Shown here piece by piece: positions 1,424-23,233 of a stretch of DNA of 24,024 nucleotides; within the stretch, counting starts at the first letter, position 1; every line of letters starts with the position of its first letter. The notes under the pieces are model-generated. The model was not told the origin of the DNA. It ran no database searches and saw only the letters and a list, made by a program, of their open reading frames with translations. A program made the position numbers and the translations under genes. This DNA comes from a virus: the IMG/VR virus record IMGVR_UViG_3300044640_000685, positions 1 to 24,024 of that record, one strand, 5' to 3'.

Positions 1424-2224
1424 ATGAAAGACAAAAACTTGGGAATTCCAATTAATCAAGAAGAGATTCAACACTATCTAAAAGATATTCGTAGAATTAA
1501 AGTAATGACACCTGACAGAGAAAAAGAACTGGCAGTTAAGATGAAGTCTGATGATACTCCAAAACACGAGAGAGAGAAAATCGAGTCTGAATTGTTAGTT
1601 GGTAACTTACGTTTTGTTATTACGGTAGCAAAACAATATCAGAATCAAGGATTGGATTTATCGGATCTTATTGCCGAAGGGAACTTAGGGTTGATGAAAG
1701 CAATTAAGAATTTTGATTGGAACAAAGACTTACGTTTTATTTCATACGCGGTGTGGTGGGTTAAACAATCTATTATCCAATCTTTGAACGACAACGCAAG
1801 AACTATACGACTACCGGTTAATGTTGTTCAGGACCTACATAAGGCAAAGAAAGAGATTGAAGTATCTGGTAAGGAATTGGATTCTAAGTTCACATCACTA
1901 CCATCTATGATTGATTTGGATATGACTATCAACGAGGAAGGTGATACATTGGTAGACATGATTGCTAACCCTGATGCTCTTTCACCTGATGCGGGATTCA
2001 ACACTAAAGATATGTTAAAGAACAAATTAATATCCTTATTGAATGTGTTGGACGATAGAGAAAAGGTGATCATTGAAGATTATTTTGGTCTAACGGGAAC
2101 ACCAAGAACACTTGAAGATATTGGTGGGGACTTTGGTTTAACTAAAGAACGAGTTAGACAGATCAAGGAAAGAGCCCTTAGACGATTGAGAAATGAAAGT
2201 TCAGAATTATTTGATTATTTATAA
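1424..2224 (+). CDS. RNA polymerase sigma factor, sigma-70 family (RpoD-like)
   Basis: This 266-residue protein has the architecture of the short Bacteroidota RpoD. Residues 11-40 are region 1.2. Residues 61-131 are region 2, including NLRFV, the core-binding helix AEGNLGLMKAI and the -10-reading YAVWWVKQSI. Residues 132-190 are a divergent region 3. Residues 200-256 are region 4, with a helix-turn-helix (about 230-249, LTKERVRQIKERALRRLR) for -33 recognition. It would redirect host RNA polymerase to phage promoters. A sigma gene close to gp46 recalls the T4 neighbourhood where the late sigma gp55 lies, but this protein is a near-complete housekeeping-type sigma rather than a reduced gp55. 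It sits behind a host-type promoter, as expected for a regulator made before late genes. The family call is certain; a late-transcription role is inferred. Confidence 0.95.
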   Translation: MKDKNLGIPINQEEIQHYLKDIRRIKVMTPDREKELAVKMKSDDTPKHEREKIESELLVGNLRFVITVAKQYQNQGLDLSDLIAEGNLGLMKAIKNFDWNKDLRFISYAVWWVKQSIIQSLNDNARTIRLPVNVVQDLHKAKKEIEVSGKELDSKFTSLPSMIDLDMTINEEGDTLVDMIANPDALSPDAGFNTKDMLKNKLISLLNVLDDREKVIIEDYFGLTGTPRTLEDIGGDFGLTKERVRQIKERALRRLRNESSELFDYL

Positions 2225-2236
2225 AAAAATAAAAAC

Positions 2237-2683
2237 ATGGGAAGTGTAATTGAGTTCATTGACTGTCCAAATTGTGGGCAAGAAGCTTATAGTGACTTTT
2301 ACTATAAATCGGGCGAACAATACGTGAATTGTAGTAACTGTGGTTATCATCACTCACAATATTGGAAGAGAAATGAGGAGGGTGAATTTGAAACATTAGA
2401 TGGTACTGATAATTATCACTTTGATAATTTGATCATGGTTGAAGAAGAATTAAAAAATCCTTATGGATCTTACAGATTAAAAACTTACCATTCACCGGCA
2501 CATCAAGTTGGTTCATTTGAAAATGAAGAACAGTACAATGAATTCAAAAAAAGTATTGAAGGTGATGTTGAAATAGAGTCCTGTTCAATATCAAGATTTA
2601 TTGATGGGGAGATCAAAATAGAGACGTTAATTGATAATGAACCTAAGGTTGATTTGGATGGATTTACAATTGAAGATCGTTAA
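2237..2683 (+). CDS. zinc-ribbon protein of unknown function
   Basis: This 148-residue acidic protein has one N-terminal zinc ribbon: CPNCG at about residues 10-14 and CSNCGY at about 32-37. The four cysteines could bind a single Zn(II). The rest is Glu/Asp-rich with no known motif. Small zinc-ribbon proteins in phages often bind nucleic acid or RNA polymerase. Its position 12 nt after the sigma gene makes a transcription-related role possible but unproven. There is no terminator after it: the next promoter (2695) begins 11 nt beyond the stop, so read-through into the ncRNA is possible. Confidence 0.85.
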   Translation: MGSVIEFIDCPNCGQEAYSDFYYKSGEQYVNCSNCGYHHSQYWKRNEEGEFETLDGTDNYHFDNLIMVEEELKNPYGSYRLKTYHSPAHQVGSFENEEQYNEFKKSIEGDVEIESCSISRFIDGEIKIETLIDNEPKVDLDGFTIEDR

Positions 2684-2694
2684 TTTAAAAAAGA

Positions 2695-2726
2695 TTTGGC
2701 AGATTGAAATAAAATACTTATATTTG
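2695..2726 (+). promoter_or_regulatory. Bacteroidota-type promoter of the putative ncRNA
   Basis: TTTG at 2695-2698, a 20-bp spacer and TATATTTG at 2719-2726 give a full match to the Bacteroidota consensus, with the same spacing as the promoter at 838. No protein-coding gene lies downstream on this strand before the terminator at 2843-2874. The expected start site is about 2731-2735. Confidence 0.82.
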
Positions 2727-2730
2727 TAAG

Positions 2731-2874
2731 ACAAACGAAAAGGGTTGAACCGAGATTACCCTTACAACTCGGCGGAATGAGACACGATGTTCTCAAGGTG
2801 AAACTCCTCAATCTTATCCTTGCGATAAGATGAAACTACACTCCCCCATTGGTACCAGTGGGGGTTTTATTTTT
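2731..2874 (+). ncRNA. putative novel structured small RNA (~140 nt)
   Basis: A host-type promoter lies just before this segment and a strong intrinsic terminator ends it. The segment is visibly less A/T-rich than the rest of the window. Complementary arms can be traced by eye. AAGGGT (2740-2745) pairs with ACCCTT (2758-2763). CCGAG inside that loop (2750-2754) pairs with CTCGG (2768-2772), giving a possible H-type pseudoknot. TGAGA (2778-2782) pairs with TCTCA (2791-2795). ATCTTATC (2811-2818) pairs with GATAAGAT (2824-2831), an 8-bp hairpin. The terminator is 2843-2864. The heptamer TGAAACT occurs twice (2799-2805 and 2831-2837), the second just after the 8-bp hairpin. It matches no RNA family I recognise (not tRNA, tmRNA or 6S). 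The start is inferred from the promoter. Confidence 0.7.
2843..2874 (+). terminator. Rho-independent terminator of the ncRNA
   Basis: CCCCC (2843-2847) pairs with GGGGG (2860-2864), and the stem extends inward through A-T, T-G, T-A and G-C pairs to a GTAC loop, about 9 bp in all. TTTTATTTTT follows at once. The hairpin has no T-tract on the minus strand, so it serves the plus-strand RNA only. It also overlaps the end of the converging gene 2873-3307. Confidence 0.9.
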
Positions 2875-3307
2875 ATATCCAAATTACAATTTGGTCCTTA
2901 CCCACTCTAAATGGATTCTCTCTTGATTCTCTAAATACAGTCCATACCTCTAACACCCAATTTGTACCTGACACATGGATGGGATTTAAAGGAATTGCTA
3001 ACTCCCATTTTTCTGACTTAATAACAAATGGTTCTCGATTTAATATCTCACGGTTAATTATTTTTTCAGCAATTTCAGTTTTAGCCAACATAATGAACTC
3101 CCTTAACTCCCTATTTTCAATAGGTCTTTGGTTGTACTCAACACCATTAAATTTTTTACCTTCTAATTCAGGTCGTGTTGATCTATCAAAAGCGTGAGAC
3201 CTACGATCCACTTCTAAATTAAATGTGACTTCAATAGTACTAACTATCTGTGCTATCCTCTTTTCTAAGATTAAAACCTTACGTATTGATTCTCTAAGTA
3301 ATGACAT
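2873..3307 (-). CDS. hypothetical protein with N-terminal amphipathic segment and HAxxR motif
   Basis: This 144-residue protein opens with an amphipathic helix (MSLLRESIRKVLILEKR) containing L-R-E and I-L-E, similar to the N-termini of other genes here and to T4 capsid-targeting peptides. The rest is mixed alpha/beta with an R-S-H-A-F-D-R motif near residue 36 and C-terminal beta strands (WVLEVWTVF). An early H-A-x-x-R followed by a beta-rich C-terminus faintly recalls phage BECR-type nuclease domains; I treat this only as a hint. It is a single minus-strand gene with a TATTTATA motif 5 nt before its ATG, divergent from the membrane protein gene at 3357 and convergent with the ncRNA. Confidence 0.82.
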   Translation of the reverse strand: MSLLRESIRKVLILEKRIAQIVSTIEVTFNLEVDRRSHAFDRSTRPELEGKKFNGVEYNQRPIENRELREFIMLAKTEIAEKIINREILNREPFVIKSEKWELAIPLNPIHVSGTNWVLEVWTVFRESRENPFRVGKDQIVIWI

Positions 3308-3331: not shown

Positions 3332-3339
3332 TATTTATA
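3332..3339 (+). promoter_or_regulatory. TATTTATA motif, candidate phage late promoter
   Basis: TATTTATA lies 17 nt before the ATG at 3357. The wider sequence TATTTATAAATA contains the motif on both strands, so it could serve either divergent gene. Its reverse complement, TATAAATA, is the T4 late promoter consensus, so orientation needs experimental proof. Confidence 0.45.
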
Positions 3340-3356
3340 AATACAGAACAATTATT

Positions 3357-4541
3357 ATGAAAGAAAAATTTTTACCTTGGTTTTTATTATTTTGTGCATT
3401 AGGGTTATCAGGGACCGCAGCATATTATAGCGTTATGGGTCTATCCGTAGTATTTATTGGGGTGGCACTACCTGTCATTATTATGGGTAGTTTTTTAGAA
3501 ATATCTAAGATTGCAATTGCAACATATCTACACGATAAATGGAAACAAACTTATGGAGTATTGAAAATATATCTTACCATCGCCCTTATAGTACTATCGT
3601 TGATCACATCACTTGGAATCTATGGGTTATTAAGTACTGGGTTTCAAGAAAATATTGCGAAACTTGAAATCAATCAAAAACAAATTACAAACATTGAAGT
3701 TAAGAAATCACGTTTTGAAGAAATTAAAAGTGAACTTCAAAAAGAAAAGAATGTTTTAGATAAAGACATATCCAAATTGAGAGATGGGTTATCAAATAAC
3801 ACCACAACACAATCTGTCGATAGAACTACAGGTCAAATAGTTACGAGAGCAAATAACGCTAATCGTAAATCATTTGAGGATCAATTAAAGATGACTACGG
3901 AAAACAGGGAGAAGGTTTCAGGACGCATTGACGCAATGAACGATAGTATTACCAAATTAGATATAGACATCCTTAATATGGAGTCTTCAGAACTTGAAGG
4001 TAGTGAACTTGGATCCATTAAATACATTAGTGAATTATCTGGTTGGGGAGTTAAAGAGGTTGCAAACTTATTCATTTTACTTTTAATTTTTGTGTTTGAC
4101 CCATTGGCAATTACATTAGTTATTGCTACCAACCAAGCGTTTAAAAATGGTAGAAAAAAAGAGGAGGAGACCCCCCAAGTTACCCCCCAAGTTACCCCCC
4201 AAGTTACCCCCCAAGTTGAACCGATAATAATTGAGAAAATTGTTGAGGTTGAGAAGATTGTTGAGGTTGAGAAGATTGTTGAGGTAGAAGTACCTGTAGA
4301 TAGAATTGTTGAGGTAGAAAAGATTGTTGAGGTAGAAAAGATTGTTGAAGTACCTGTTGTTGTACAAAGAGAAACTTTAGAAATAAGTGAAGAAAGAAGT
4401 TGGGAGTCAACACCTATTGATGAGTTATTTGAAAGTGAGGAAAATTACATGATTAGTAATGGGACAGGTGGTGAATCAACAACTACCACAACAACTAACG
4501 ATGGGATTAAACGATTAGTTTATAAAAAGAGTGATGAATGA
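3357..4541 (+). CDS. multi-pass membrane protein with coiled coil and TPQV / EKIVEV repeats
   Basis: This 394-residue protein has hydrophobic segments at about 8-26, 28-48, 70-93 and 235-258. A long charged coiled-coil segment (about 96-215) lies between the third and fourth. The last segment carries the phrase F-D-P-L-A-I-T-L-V-I, which I recall from membrane proteins of other T4-like marine phages. The tail after residue 265 is low-complexity: four TPQV units (272-287), then EKIVEV units (about 293-333) interrupted by VPVDR, then a Ser/Thr-rich end. It immediately precedes the endolysin and overlaps its start, so a role in the host envelope or lysis (holin-like or envelope anchor) is plausible, but it is much larger than a normal holin. 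Function unknown. Confidence 0.88.
   Translation: MKEKFLPWFLLFCALGLSGTAAYYSVMGLSVVFIGVALPVIIMGSFLEISKIAIATYLHDKWKQTYGVLKIYLTIALIVLSLITSLGIYGLLSTGFQENIAKLEINQKQITNIEVKKSRFEEIKSELQKEKNVLDKDISKLRDGLSNNTTTQSVDRTTGQIVTRANNANRKSFEDQLKMTTENREKVSGRIDAMNDSITKLDIDILNMESSELEGSELGSIKYISELSGWGVKEVANLFILLLIFVFDPLAITLVIATNQAFKNGRKKEEETPQVTPQVTPQVTPQVEPIIIEKIVEVEKIVEVEKIVEVEVPVDRIVEVEKIVEVEKIVEVPVVVQRETLEISEERSWESTPIDELFESEENYMISNGTGGESTTTTTTNDGIKRLVYKKSDE
4170..4217 (+). repeat. four tandem 12-bp repeats (ACCCCCCAAGTT)
   Basis: Four perfect copies of ACCCCCCAAGTT start at 4170, 4182, 4194 and 4206 and encode TPQV repeats. Each contains a C6 run, striking in such A/T-rich DNA. Unit loss or gain keeps the frame; slippage within a C6 run would break it. 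Confidence 0.95.
4229..4352 (+). repeat. 18-bp imperfect tandem repeats encoding EKIVEV
   Basis: Units resembling GAGAAGATTGTTGAGGTT recur about six times, interrupted once by a VPVDR-coding segment. They encode an alternating acidic/hydrophobic tract that probably forms an extended or coiled stalk. Codons differ slightly between copies (GTT or GTA, AAG or AAA), so the array is older than the 12-bp one. Confidence 0.9.
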
Positions 4542-6733: not shown

Positions 6734-7512
6734 TGGAAAATATAACATCACAACTTAAAGATATGATATCAAGTCAGCTATCAGGTAATCCTGATGCTAG
6801 AAGTAATGCACTAAAAGGTCTAAGAGATGTGAAAGAAAATAATGAGGAAGGAAACAAAAGAAACTCTCCTCAGGATTATTTGAAAGATTCAAATGGATTG
6901 AAATTGGTTTTTGAATTAGCAAAACAAAAAAGAACTAATAAAGCAACTATCAGAAAAGAAATTAAAAAATTATTAAAAAACCCTGAAGAGATTAACGACT
7001 TCTTGAACTCAATACTTTCGTTTGTTAAATCAAAAAAAGGTAGTGATAAAGATGAGACAAAAGAAGCCACAGGATCGGGTAGTGCTGGTGGTTATTCAGC
7101 TCCACTATTCGGTAAAGAAATGAAAGAAACAAAAGAAGAATATTGTGATTCTTGTGATAGAGTTAAATCCAAATGTGTTTGTAATAGACCAAGAAGAACA
7201 GAAACAAAAGAAGCCACAGGATCGGCATCATCAGGTCAATACTCAGGACCCTCGATATGGGCAAAGTCAACCAAGAAAAAAGATTGGGCACCAAAACGTA
7301 AAACACAATTACCTGGTGGTAAGTTTGTCCAAGTTAAGAAAAAATGTAAAAAGTTCCCTTATTGTAATCAAGGGGATATTAACGCAATTAAAATGTTTGA
7401 AAACGAGACTCTTTCAAAAGTAATAAACGATTTATCAATTAGATATCAAATACATGAAGATTTCATTAGGGGAATAATCTTTAATGAAATGTCAAAAAGG
7501 AATTTAATGTGA
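6733..7512 (+). CDS. repeat-containing Cys-rich phage protein (ETKEATGS repeats)
   Basis: This 259-residue basic protein has a helical N-terminal domain (1-100). Two copies of a ~21-residue segment follow, TKEATGS-x-S-x-G-x-Y-S-x-P, at about 109-129 and 158-178. Between the copies is a small Cys cluster (C138, C141, C148, C150) that could bind one zinc. The C-terminal domain is basic, with GGKFVQVKKKCKKFPYC (about 195-211). The duplicated Gly/Ser segments look like flexible linkers or processing sites of the kind seen in phage head-core proteins. Function unknown. It is the last gene before a TATTTATT motif. Confidence 0.82.
   Translation: MENITSQLKDMISSQLSGNPDARSNALKGLRDVKENNEEGNKRNSPQDYLKDSNGLKLVFELAKQKRTNKATIRKEIKKLLKNPEEINDFLNSILSFVKSKKGSDKDETKEATGSGSAGGYSAPLFGKEMKETKEEYCDSCDRVKSKCVCNRPRRTETKEATGSASSGQYSGPSIWAKSTKKKDWAPKRKTQLPGGKFVQVKKKCKKFPYCNQGDINAIKMFENETLSKVINDLSIRYQIHEDFIRGIIFNEMSKRNLM
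7057..7225 (+). repeat. 22-bp direct repeat pair
   Basis: An identical 22-bp sequence beginning ACAAAAGAAGCCACAGGATC occurs at 7057-7078 and 7204-7225, encoding the duplicated TKEATGS segments. Exact identity at third positions suggests recent duplication or gene conversion. Confidence 0.93.
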
Positions 7513-7520
7513 TATTTATT
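7513..7520 (+). promoter_or_regulatory. TATTTATT motif, candidate phage late promoter
   Basis: TATTTATT directly abuts the TGA of the upstream gene and lies 14 nt before the ATG at 7535, the same spacing as the copies before 13277 and 12321. Confidence 0.45.
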
Positions 7521-7534
7521 AAATAAAAATAACT

Positions 7535-8767
7535 ATGAACAATTATTTAAAAAATAAAATCCAAAAACTTATTAACGAAACTTTGGAAGATAAGGCTTAC
7601 GAGGTTATGGAAAAATTAAAATTTAACAAACCTGGTAGTTCATTTGATTATGTTGAAGAAGGTGAAATGTGTGAACAATGTGGTGGAGAAGTGAAAGAGG
7701 GGGAGCAATGTGAACAATGTGGAACCAAAGGTGGATCTGAAGTAATGGAAAAATTACACGGAAACCAAAGTAAACTTGATAAAAACCGTAATAATAGAAT
7801 AGACGCCGAAGACTTCAAAATGTTGAGAGGTAAAAAAAGAGAAACCAAAGAAGGTAACTCACAAGAATGTATGGAATGTGGTAGTTCTGAGGTATATGAA
7901 GGTGAGTGTAAAGAATGTGGTTATAATAAAGGGTCTGAAGTAATGGAAAAATTACACGGTAACCAAAGAAAAATAGATAAGAATAAAAACGGTAAAATTG
8001 ATAAAGAAGACTTCAAGATGTTAAGAAAAGAAGAAGATGGTATTAATGAAAGTGTGTTTTATGAATTATCTACAATGGTAAATGGTAAGAGAGAAAAACT
8101 TTTATTCACTGAGGGTCAGTTCGAAGAAATTATTGAAAATATTGTTCTAAAGGAAGAAAGTAAATTCAGTAAAGGTAAAACTCCAGCAGGATATGCTGAA
8201 TATGAAAGTTCTGTTAAAAAGTCCAAAAAAGAAGAAGAGGACTACATGAAAAGTTTAAGTAAAAAAATGAAAGATTATTTAAAAGACGGATCTAAAGGTG
8301 AGTATACTGAATCACCAAAACATTTCCCTAAAGGAAATGGTGAATTAGAAAAAATGACTAAGAAGGCATATATTCCATCAGGAGCGGTTGAAGACTACAT
8401 TGATAACTTTACTGCTGCAGGTTTAGAGAACTTAGATTATGATGAAATCCATCCGAATGAAGATTGGGTAACTGATAACATTGAAGGATCATCAAAGACA
8501 GGTAATAACCCTGAATGGGCAAATGCGGTTGAAACACCAAACAACAAAAAAAGAAACAAAATTAGAAAAGATAATTTATTAGGTAAAATGAAACGTAAAG
8601 CCTACAATAAATCAGCTCAACCTGTTGTTAACGATAAGGCTGGTGAAGATGAAGGTGATAAAATTATGACTAAGTTAGAATCAATTGATGAAAAGAAAAA
8701 ACAAAAAATCAATGAAGATTTTAATCGTATAATGAACTTAATGTCTTATAAGAAAAACACTCAATAA
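7535..8767 (+). CDS. virion-like protein with two zinc-ribbon plus EF-hand modules
   Basis: This 410-residue, very Lys/Glu-rich protein begins with MNNYLKNKIQKLINE (I-N-E at 13-15, a possible prohead-protease site). Two tandem modules follow, offset by exactly 66 residues. Module 1 has C46/C49/C59/C62 and a calcium-binding-type loop at 82-93 (D-K-N-R-N-N-R-I-D-A-E-D). Module 2 has C112/C115/C125/C128 and a loop at 148-159 (D-K-N-K-N-G-K-I-D-K-E-D). Both loops place D, N, N and a hydrophobic residue at EF-hand positions 1, 3, 5 and 8, with Asp at 12. A helix S-E-V-M-E-K-L-H-G-N-Q precedes each loop, and AYEVMEKLKF at 21-30 looks like a remnant third copy. Residues 172-205 form a VFYELSTMVNGK domain; the C-terminus is disordered. 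Possibly an internal or scaffold protein. Metal binding is inferred. Confidence 0.85.
   Translation: MNNYLKNKIQKLINETLEDKAYEVMEKLKFNKPGSSFDYVEEGEMCEQCGGEVKEGEQCEQCGTKGGSEVMEKLHGNQSKLDKNRNNRIDAEDFKMLRGKKRETKEGNSQECMECGSSEVYEGECKECGYNKGSEVMEKLHGNQRKIDKNKNGKIDKEDFKMLRKEEDGINESVFYELSTMVNGKREKLLFTEGQFEEIIENIVLKEESKFSKGKTPAGYAEYESSVKKSKKEEEDYMKSLSKKMKDYLKDGSKGEYTESPKHFPKGNGELEKMTKKAYIPSGAVEDYIDNFTAAGLENLDYDEIHPNEDWVTDNIEGSSKTGNNPEWANAVETPNNKKRNKIRKDNLLGKMKRKAYNKSAQPVVNDKAGEDEGDKIMTKLESIDEKKKQKINEDFNRIMNLMSYKKNTQ
7736..7968 (+). repeat. 35-bp near-identical direct repeat within a 198-bp duplicated module
   Basis: Positions 7736-7770 and 7934-7968 match at 34 of 35 bases and lie 198 bp (66 codons) apart. 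They encode the SEVMEKLHGNQ helix of each zinc-ribbon/EF-hand module. Synonymous positions are conserved too, pointing to recent duplication or ongoing homogenisation. Confidence 0.9.
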
Positions 8768-21782: not shown

Positions 21783-21965
21783 ATGAGTTTCAACAAAAGA
21801 ATTTTAAAGAAAGAAAACATCCTTATTCACTTAAATGATATTATGACTTATTTAAATGCCGATGCAATTATTTGTACCGACGATTTTTCGCGCAAAGTCT
21901 ATAGGATGTATACCGAAGGTTTTACCAAAGAGGAAATAATAAATGTTATAAATAAAATGAAATGA
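21783..21965 (+). CDS. small helical protein (60 aa)
   Basis: This 60-residue protein starts 1 nt after the previous stop and overlaps the glutamine synthetase gene by ATGA. The second half (YRMYTEGFTKEEIINVINKM) looks like a helix-turn-helix-like or UBA-like bundle, too short to classify. Its tight coupling to both neighbours supports it as a real gene. Confidence 0.75.
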   Translation: MSFNKRILKKENILIHLNDIMTYLNADAIICTDDFSRKVYRMYTEGFTKEEIINVINKMK

Positions 21966-23233
21966 AAGTTAAGTTAGAATATGTGTGGATCGACGGATAT
22001 ACACCTGAACCAAACCTAAGAAGTAAAGTTAAAATTATGGACTATGAACAAATTAAAAATTGTTTGGTTCTAAATAATTTTCCTGAATGGAACTTTGATG
22101 GGTCATCAACATTACAAGCGGAAGGTAATAGTTCTGATTGTATTTTAATGCCTGTTAGACATTATTTTTGTGATAATACAAATACGATTTACGTGTTGTG
22201 TGAAGTAATGAATTCTGATGGTACACCACACGAAACTAATACAAGATCAAAACTAATTGGAGATCAAGAAGATTTGTGGTTTGGATTTGAACAAGAATAC
22301 TTTATCTATGATAGAAAAAACAAATGTATTTTAGGTCACGATGAAAACAACTTGGAACCACAAGGTAAATATTATTGTGGTGTTGGTGAATATGTTTCAG
22401 GAAGAGATTTTGTTGAGGAACATATGGATATGTGTTTAAAATACGGAATTGACATTACAGGGATCAACGCTGAGGTTGCGTTAGGTCAATGGGAATATCA
22501 AGTATTTTCAAAAGGTAAATTAAAGGCGGGTGATGATTTGTGGATGACTAGATACTTCTTGTATAAAATCTCTGAAAAATATAATTATGGTATTGACCTA
22601 CATCCAAAACCAATCCAAAAAGGTGAGTGGAATGGTTCAGGTCTCCACACAAACTTCTCCACAGATAAAATGAGAAATGATGGTAATGAAGAATATTTTA
22701 TGTCATTGTTTAATGCGTTTGAGGTAAGGCATGAAGCTCATATTAAAGCTTACGGGTCAGATAACAATCTCCGTTTAACTGGTAAATTTGAAACACAATC
22801 AATTGATAAATTTAGTTGGGGTGTTTCAGATCGAGGGGCATCAATTAGAGTTCCAAAAGAGACTGCTGAAAATTGGAAAGGTTATGTTGAAGATCGTAGA
22901 CCAGGATCAAATGCGGATCCGTACAAGATTATTATTGAGATTGTTAAATCATTGGATGCAACTAAACAAATCTATGGAATGAAACATATGATGAATAAAC
23001 TTGTTGATATTGAAGGATTAAGTGAAAAATATAGAACTATATCTGGTGATGAGTTATTAAAAGAATATAAAAATGATGATGATTATGAGGTTAATGAGGA
23101 CACTATGAGGTCAAAGGCGAATATTGAACCTGAAGTAATAAAATTTGACACAGAGTCATTAATAAAATCTTCATCATTACCTGAAGAACTTAAAAAGATA
23201 ATGTTAAACGCAGATAAAGTTGAAATAAAATGA
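21962..23233 (+). CDS. glutamine synthetase, type II (eukaryote-like GSII)
   Basis: This enzyme makes glutamine from glutamate, ammonia and ATP. The 423-residue protein has the GSII beta-grasp start YVWIDGY (7-13), WNFDGSST (43-50), metal-binding GFEQEYF (108-114, E110 and E112), GQWEYQ (175-180), the ATP/ammonia loop NGSGLHTNFS (224-233), RLTGKFET (271-278), SDRGASIRVP (289-298) and EDRRPGSNADPY (310-321), so all catalytic elements are present. Bacteroidota GSII proteins are about 340 residues; this one carries ~80 extra C-terminal residues, Asp/Glu/Lys-rich and of unknown role. It is ATGA-coupled to DUF3310 and a nucleotide-sugar enzyme. A phage GS is an unusual auxiliary metabolic gene. 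Confidence 0.95.
   Translation: MKVKLEYVWIDGYTPEPNLRSKVKIMDYEQIKNCLVLNNFPEWNFDGSSTLQAEGNSSDCILMPVRHYFCDNTNTIYVLCEVMNSDGTPHETNTRSKLIGDQEDLWFGFEQEYFIYDRKNKCILGHDENNLEPQGKYYCGVGEYVSGRDFVEEHMDMCLKYGIDITGINAEVALGQWEYQVFSKGKLKAGDDLWMTRYFLYKISEKYNYGIDLHPKPIQKGEWNGSGLHTNFSTDKMRNDGNEEYFMSLFNAFEVRHEAHIKAYGSDNNLRLTGKFETQSIDKFSWGVSDRGASIRVPKETAENWKGYVEDRRPGSNADPYKIIIEIVKSLDATKQIYGMKHMMNKLVDIEGLSEKYRTISGDELLKEYKNDDDYEVNEDTMRSKANIEPEVIKFDTESLIKSSSLPEELKKIMLNADKVEIK

Follow-up and report, generated by a model that had tools for sequence, protein, structure and literature searches.

A putative pseudoknot RNA gene in an accessory slot of large viral genomes

Results

Can a gene-poor interval in a viral genome be recognized as the gene of a structured RNA, and what might such an RNA do? 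We examined positions 1 to 24,024 of IMG/VR virus record IMGVR_UViG_3300044640_000685 (24,024 nucleotides (nt), hereafter termed the window). An earlier reading of this DNA, made without database searches and termed here the original prediction, had marked positions 2695-2874 as a stand-alone, structured and undescribed phage non-coding RNA (ncRNA). We found homologues of this element that keep its pairing and covary, and no matching Rfam family. On this comparative evidence from sequence, window 2731-2874 is almost certainly a real RNA gene.

Homologues of the RNA

The exact 15-mer CTCGGCGGAATGAGA occurred in 44 IMG/VR stretches; true relatives were among them, and the remainder were chance matches. 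With two looser patterns the yield was 38 and 89 stretches. When helix P2 of the fold described below was left open to any pyrimidine-purine pairing, the pattern again gave 89 stretches; thus, the RNA family looks bounded at ~90 contigs in IMG/VR. Covariance model R1 scored the RNA at 73-118 bits and located it once in each of eight records of 51-292 kb.

Four family members were used as blastn queries against INPHARED (50,697 phage records), and none found the RNA body: for three members the matches were limited to the promoter, the terminator or other short segments, and the fourth matched nothing. With the window region as query, four records were matched; none is named as a T4 relative, and none aligned with the body of the RNA. 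A pattern scan of ~85,000 GTDB species genomes gave one chance match, in an actinobacterial genome; this pattern recovers less than half of the known members, and rare prophage copies could escape it.

As the original prediction had anticipated, no Rfam 15 family reached the gathering threshold in the window or in eight related loci. Relaxed scans of RNA-bearing stretches gave sub-threshold, chance-like matches or none, and the scan of the window up to E 10 gave six chance-like matches. The sub-threshold match to L10_leader was rejected; it aligns mainly through the terminator. No published description of the RNA was found in the titles and abstracts searched, which were mostly those of open-access papers. 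Phage ncRNAs are already known as a kind; this one is in no catalogued RNA family.

Fold and covariation

Alignment A1 comprised 54 distinct homologous cores, and the model derived for them has five helices (P1-P5) and 28 pairs (Table 1). In this model 96% of cells were paired, versus 32-50% when partners were slid by 1-3 columns, and two-sided changes numbered 143 versus 49.5 in shuffles. P3-P5 were drawn from A1 itself, so their fit there is not an independent test. The H-type pseudoknot (2740-2745 with 2758-2763; 2750-2754 with 2768-2772) had been named before any homologue was seen; it is present in the window and kept in the homologues. The original prediction had proposed conserved pairing and covariation in relatives as the measure of its claim, and both were found across the 54 cores.

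Two further hairpins had been proposed, and these (P3 and P5) showed strong covariation. The P3 stem was exchanged almost entirely, from GAGA/TCTC to GGTG/CACC, and a C-G/G-C change occurred at 2783-2789. The outer pair of P1 was A-U in 27 and U-A in 18 of the 54 sequences, while its inner pairs were nearly constant; in P2 a single compensatory change was seen, from C-G to U-A in L052. P4 also varied with compensation, and each of the five helices thus showed compensatory changes. The top four pairs by mutual information with average product correction were all model pairs. The fifth, 2746-2757, alternated between U-U and C-A and would lengthen P1 as a non-canonical pair. Under a tree-aware null, in which each column's changes are redistributed on a tree, only the P5 pair 2814-2828 was significant among all column pairs. 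Scaling the E-values to the 28 model pairs brought six of them, located in P1, P3 and P5, below 0.05; P2, which hardly varies, and P4, which varies via G-U, failed.

These results bear on the reading that the element is an intergenic spacer with random promoter-like and terminator-like sites. Such a spacer would agree with the chance-level promoter motif and the weak single-sequence fold of the window (see below), but it is refuted by ~90 homologues with compensatory changes, and we regard its probability as negligible.

Conservation was highest in the pseudoknot and the linker CGGAA (2773-2777) directly after P2. At positions 2741-2777, 33-37 of the 37 bases were identical between loci whose sigma proteins are 67-84% identical. 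A core that binds a protein or a ligand could explain this level of conservation, as could recent horizontal transfer. The repeated TGAAACT noted in the original prediction is present in two copies, 2799-2805 in the P4 loop and 2831-2837 after P5; among the homologues, TGAAA hardly varies after P5 and is common in the P4 loop, which may be T-loop-like (UGNRA). A small RNA that base-pairs with host or phage mRNAs, using its single-stranded TGAAAC segments as seeds, would account for this recurrence. However, conservation peaks in the pseudoknot and linker rather than in linear segments, and the copy in the P4 loop varies (UGCAA, UGAGA, GGAA). We consider this role distinctly unlikely. The antisense role listed in the original prediction also loses weight, as the most strongly conserved bases sit in the folded pseudoknot and linker. 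A Cas13b-repeat-like reading of GTTG...TTACAAC is not supported; the additional pairing that it needs, GTTG with CAAC, is disrupted in L019, L050 and L052.

Promoter, body and terminator in the window

The promoter of the RNA, described in the original prediction as perfect, is an exact TTTG-N20-TATATTTG match, and transcription would be expected to start at ~2731-2734. On its own, this motif is not above chance in the AT-rich window: three matches were found versus 1.5 expected, and 21 of 100 shuffles reached three. It recurs, however, in homologues where it is needed. Window 2682-2735, which includes the promoter, is 85% identical to positions 420034-420087 of LR745206.1, where the promoter precedes a tRNA-like gene; this 635-kb uncultured phage record is matched by the promoter region at five places.

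The claims of raised G+C content, no convincing gene and a strong terminator were borne out. G+C content was 0.44 at 2731-2872 versus 0.31 for the whole window, and 0.6% of 142-nt stretches were equally GC-rich. The ~110 nt between promoter and terminator stem contain no convincing open reading frame (ORF); the longest plus-strand ORF that begins inside the RNA starts at 2830 and encodes 26 amino acids (aa). The terminator stem is kept among relatives while its sequence changes. The single-sequence fold had a z-score of -1.8, and 14 of 200 shuffles were as stable; pseudoknots are outside the model of the folding tool. From the window sequence alone the case for an RNA gene is modest, whereas the comparative evidence is decisive.

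Table 1. Positions of the RNA gene, its parts and neighbouring genes in the window
Feature	Position	Strand	Remarks
Promoter, Bacteroidota-type	2695..2726	+	TTTG 2695-2698, 20-nt spacer, TATATTTG 2719-2726; exact match
RNA gene, ~140 nt	2731..2874	+	Homologous element on ~90 IMG/VR contigs; covariance model 116 bits (window sequence itself part of the model)
P1 of H-type pseudoknot	2741..2762	+	AGGGT 2741-2745 with ACCCT 2758-2762
P2 of H-type pseudoknot	2750..2772	+	CCGAG 2750-2754 with CTCGG 2768-2772; 100% of cells paired
P3 hairpin	2778..2795	+	Conserved GA in loop; two-sided exchanges in four pairs
P4 hairpin, 3 bp	2796..2808	+	Loop TGAAACT; closing pair A-U 28, G-U 16, G-C 9 of 54
P5 hairpin	2809..2832	+	Followed by single-stranded TGAAACT 2831-2837; pair 2814-2828 is the strongest covariation of the alignment
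Intrinsic terminator	2843..2874	+	9-bp GC-rich stem 2843-2864, then TTTTATTTTT
Sigma-70-family factor (phrog_351), F1	1424..2224	+	Lies next upstream of the RNA in many relatives
Small zinc-ribbon-like protein	2237..2683	+	Separates sigma from the RNA in the window; Pfam PF14354 E 1e-4, below cut-off
F11, convergent small protein	2873..3307	-	Adjoins the RNA in 32/71 distinct loci; N-terminal LxE motif
F0, membrane-protein-like gene	3357..4541	+	Late-type TATTTATA motif upstream; usual downstream border of the slot

Genomic setting and transcription

The genomic setting was compared in 71 distinct RNA-bearing loci. The RNA usually lies in a variable slot between the sigma gene (F1) and F0, and it is on the strand of the sigma operon in all loci with sigma. 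Upstream neighbours vary and include sigma, the zinc-ribbon protein (window), F17, a cytosine methyltransferase, F30, others, or none; downstream neighbours (F0, convergent F11, F17) also vary, while the RNA and its terminator persist. Six loci (L134, L138, L142, L153, L155, L174) have no sigma gene and a different context, with F11 beside the RNA. The zinc-ribbon protein is at the slot in 16 of the 71 loci and weakly resembles the restriction-alleviation protein Lar, below the cut-off.

The variable downstream side bears on a riboswitch or attenuator, in which conditional termination would control the following gene. An aptamer-like pseudoknot before a terminator is suggestive of such an element, and roughly half of the loci have F0 next, in the same orientation. 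However, a convergent gene is next in ~30 of the 71 loci, the terminator stems vary with no conserved antiterminator seen, and F0 has its own late-type motif. This reading is very improbable.

On the upstream side, 43 copies start 0-17 nt past an upstream stop codon, often that of sigma, and only two of these have a stray TAnnTTTG box. TAnnTTTG lies 11-25 nt ahead of 20 of the 26 copies further off; for L030 and L032 the box that matched falls within an upstream stretch resembling RNA-C (see below). The stand-alone promoter of the original prediction thus stands for the window and for 20 of 26 separated homologues, but not for most relatives, which closely follow an upstream gene. There appear to be two arrangements that ensure transcription: the RNA either forms the 3' end of an operon or has a promoter of its own. 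A bare transcript-end element needs no promoter of its own; this two-way pattern therefore argues for a free trans-acting RNA, and the RNA probably does act in trans.

The same data would in part suit a 3' untranslated region module without a trans function, which would protect the sigma-operon mRNA and end it, or be released from it by processing. The 43 copies close to a stop codon fit this explanation, and according to one report (PMC2864571) such domains are rare in bacteria yet precedented. We nevertheless consider it unlikely. The 20 separated copies with a promoter box have no ORF between promoter and terminator, copies in L134, L138, L142 and L155 have no adjoining sigma gene, and the related phages L088 and L113 have a plain terminator after sigma.

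Promoter classes give an indication of timing. TAnnTTTG precedes the first sigma-operon gene (F3) in 45 of 51 loci. TATTTATM was found upstream of F0 in 46 of 60 loci, of F17 in 7 of 8, of F11 in 19 of 32, and of sigma in none of 58; we take it to be like the T4-type late promoter TATAAATA. The TATTTATA/C motif at window ~3333-3345, and before F0, F11 and F17 in relatives, is a candidate late promoter. Because late-type genes use this T4-late-like motif, the RNA is placed in the pre-late class, and it is likely made before the late genes, judging by these classes.

Distribution as an accessory gene

Among sigma-anchored loci, the RNA was present in 46 of 118 and absent from 72; these loci span at most 5 kb per side and some contigs are shorter, so a few absences may reflect missing sequence. 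At least six gains or losses were counted on the sigma tree for loci with enough sequence. L094 and L097 have identical sigma proteins, and only L097 has the RNA. The repeated gain and loss and the contrast of this pair indicate that the RNA is an accessory gene. Other accessory genes nearby in various loci encode N6/N4 and C5 DNA methyltransferases, an Eco57I-type methylase and a PD-(D/E)XK nuclease.

The frequent adjacency to a phage sigma gene recalls one role listed in the original prediction, a 6S-like or other RNA that binds RNA polymerase or sigma and shifts host transcription. This role is improbable: the 72 sigma loci above do without the RNA, no 6S model, 6S-flavo (RF01685) included, appeared up to E 10, and where 6S RNA forms a long hairpin whose large central bubble mimics an open promoter, this RNA folds into an H-type pseudoknot and three short hairpins.

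We also considered that the RNA might serve F11 or F17, the proteins encoded next to it, as an antitoxin or chaperone, in the manner of type III toxin-antitoxin systems. F11 flanks the RNA in the loci counted in Table 1, including unrelated contexts (L134/L138, L142/L155), and F17 does so in eight more; one F11 member is weakly DUF4258-like and one F17 member weakly MuF_C-like. However, neither protein is present in 26 of 46 RNA-bearing sigma loci, and one of them is present in 13 of 72 RNA-lacking loci; these counts rule out F11 as an obligatory partner. The F11 structure model (predicted local distance difference test (pLDDT) 82) had no significant PDB match, and the F17 prediction had a pLDDT of 39. 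The RNA forms no repeat array. Its single copy, with no constant partner or downstream gene, argues against a repeat-type antitoxin as well as a riboswitch, and we regard the antitoxin reading as quite improbable.

F11 (window 2873-3307) and F17 (L148 13247-13780) are small proteins with an N-terminal LxE motif and a conserved His. The LxE motif is presumably like T4 prohead-protease sites, and F11 and F17 are candidate packaged or injected proteins.

Other features of the window and the slot

The carriers of the RNA appear to be large T4-like viruses, seemingly infecting Bacteroidota. A T4-type Gp23 capsid protein is encoded in three of the five large related records tested. Judged solely by promoter type, the host would belong to the Bacteroidota. 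The window also encodes an SbcC-like protein, DnaJ and a Dam-like methyltransferase, and no transfer RNA (tRNA) was found in it or in twelve related loci. Window 21962-23233 encodes a 423-aa protein that is glutamine synthetase-like by eye; its only database match was a PHROG of unknown function.

Three other unclassified RNA-like units, unrelated to the RNA under study (RNA-A), were observed in the slot. RNA-B (L097 5840-5980, L094 5620-5780, L100 2613-2755, and L064, L069 and L076 near 7510-8390) is promoter-driven, ORF-poor, ~130 nt long and structured-looking by eye. It has two subgroups that are 74-76% identical, and no Rfam match. It occupies the slot where RNA-A is absent and stands beside RNA-A in L097. 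RNA-C (L097 6040-6172; also L007, L148, L151, L172, L184 and L061) is a conserved unit with the core GTCGGGAAGCTTACTCCTGGGGTCGTAAGTCGTCG and a terminator, lies directly upstream of the F17 gene and has no Rfam match; a remnant precedes RNA-A in L030 and L032. ARAGORN found no tRNA or transfer-messenger RNA in RNA-C. RNA-D (L190 6256-6355, L051 807-900, L171 2176-2262, L106 5815-5863) is ~70 nt long and has two hairpins with the identical loop GTCAGAATAC; a repeated-loop sponge is conceivable.

Discussion

Our leading reading, which we put forward tentatively, is that the RNA is a trans-acting, structured accessory RNA of T4-like phages, made before the late genes, whose binding to a host protein blocks or redirects that protein. 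Host RNA polymerase would transcribe it pre-late, in some loci from a dedicated promoter and in others as the last part of the sigma-operon transcript; its 3' end would be set by the terminator. The near-invariant pseudoknot and CGGAA linker would be the working part, with P3-P5 and the terminator as scaffold. The RNA would then bind a host defence or RNA-processing factor and block or redirect it, in takeover or counter-defence. Protein binding, taken by itself, is a possibility that we place somewhat short of an even chance. A broader proposal is conceivable though unlikely: this RNA would found a new class of counter-defence or takeover RNAs, in which a rigid pseudoknot captures a host protein, and would share an interchangeable ncRNA slot of T4-like Bacteroidota phages with the unrelated RNA-B, RNA-C and RNA-D.

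Several observations weigh against the leading reading. No protein is common to all RNA-bearing loci. L146 and L171 have late-type motifs before the RNA instead of TAnnTTTG; the timing may therefore differ there. P2 is supported by a single compensatory event and P4 by a 3-bp stem. The methyltransferase-rich context suggests counter-defence but does not prove it.

To our knowledge, few structured phage RNAs are conserved across many genomes, and most of these have no known function. With ~90 homologues, a comparative fold, a pattern of gain and loss and the L094/L097 pair, the role of the present RNA becomes directly testable once such a phage is isolated. In this accessory slot, near DNA methyltransferases, phages seem to replace one ncRNA gene by another; it is a place to seek further RNA-based counter-defence.

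The type III antitoxin RNAs ToxI, CptI and TenpI have an H-type pseudoknot in common with the present RNA, in which P1 and P2 were paired in nearly all cells of the 54 cores. They are, however, tandem repeats, whereas one copy was found in each of the eight records of 51-292 kb, and type III systems have a downstream endoribonuclease of the ToxN/AbiQ fold, whereas F11 and F17 had no ToxN-type match. RNA C and RNA D of phage T4 are small stable RNAs of unknown function encoded in the T4 tRNA cluster. They are likewise small RNAs of a T4-like phage and are set apart by their tRNA-cluster location, the sequences not having been compared directly.

The STAXI motif (PMC2864571) is a pseudoknot RNA found near genes that include anti-restriction genes; its pseudoknots are repeated two or three times, whereas the present RNA has one pseudoknot and no Rfam STAXI match. 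The abiF motif RF03085 (PMC12373285) is likewise a structured RNA of phages, with a defence protein as its partner; the present RNA differs in having no Rfam match and no constant adjoining protein partner. Pseudo-ToxI of phage PhiTE and the RNA anti-CRISPRs (Racrs) both act by mimicry (PMC3475682, PMC10651486). ToxI is a pseudoknot RNA, and pseudo-ToxI is an RNA-based counter-defence like the mechanism proposed here. The PhiTE sequence consists of repeats that look like an antitoxin already known (PMC3475682), whereas the present RNA is a single copy of ~140 nt with no Rfam match that ends an operon or has its own promoter. The Racrs are mimics of CRISPR repeats; in the present RNA no repeat-like unit was recognized, though no comparison with a repeat library was made. 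Racrs are nevertheless small phage ncRNAs that sequester a host defence protein (PMC10651486), as we propose the present RNA may do.
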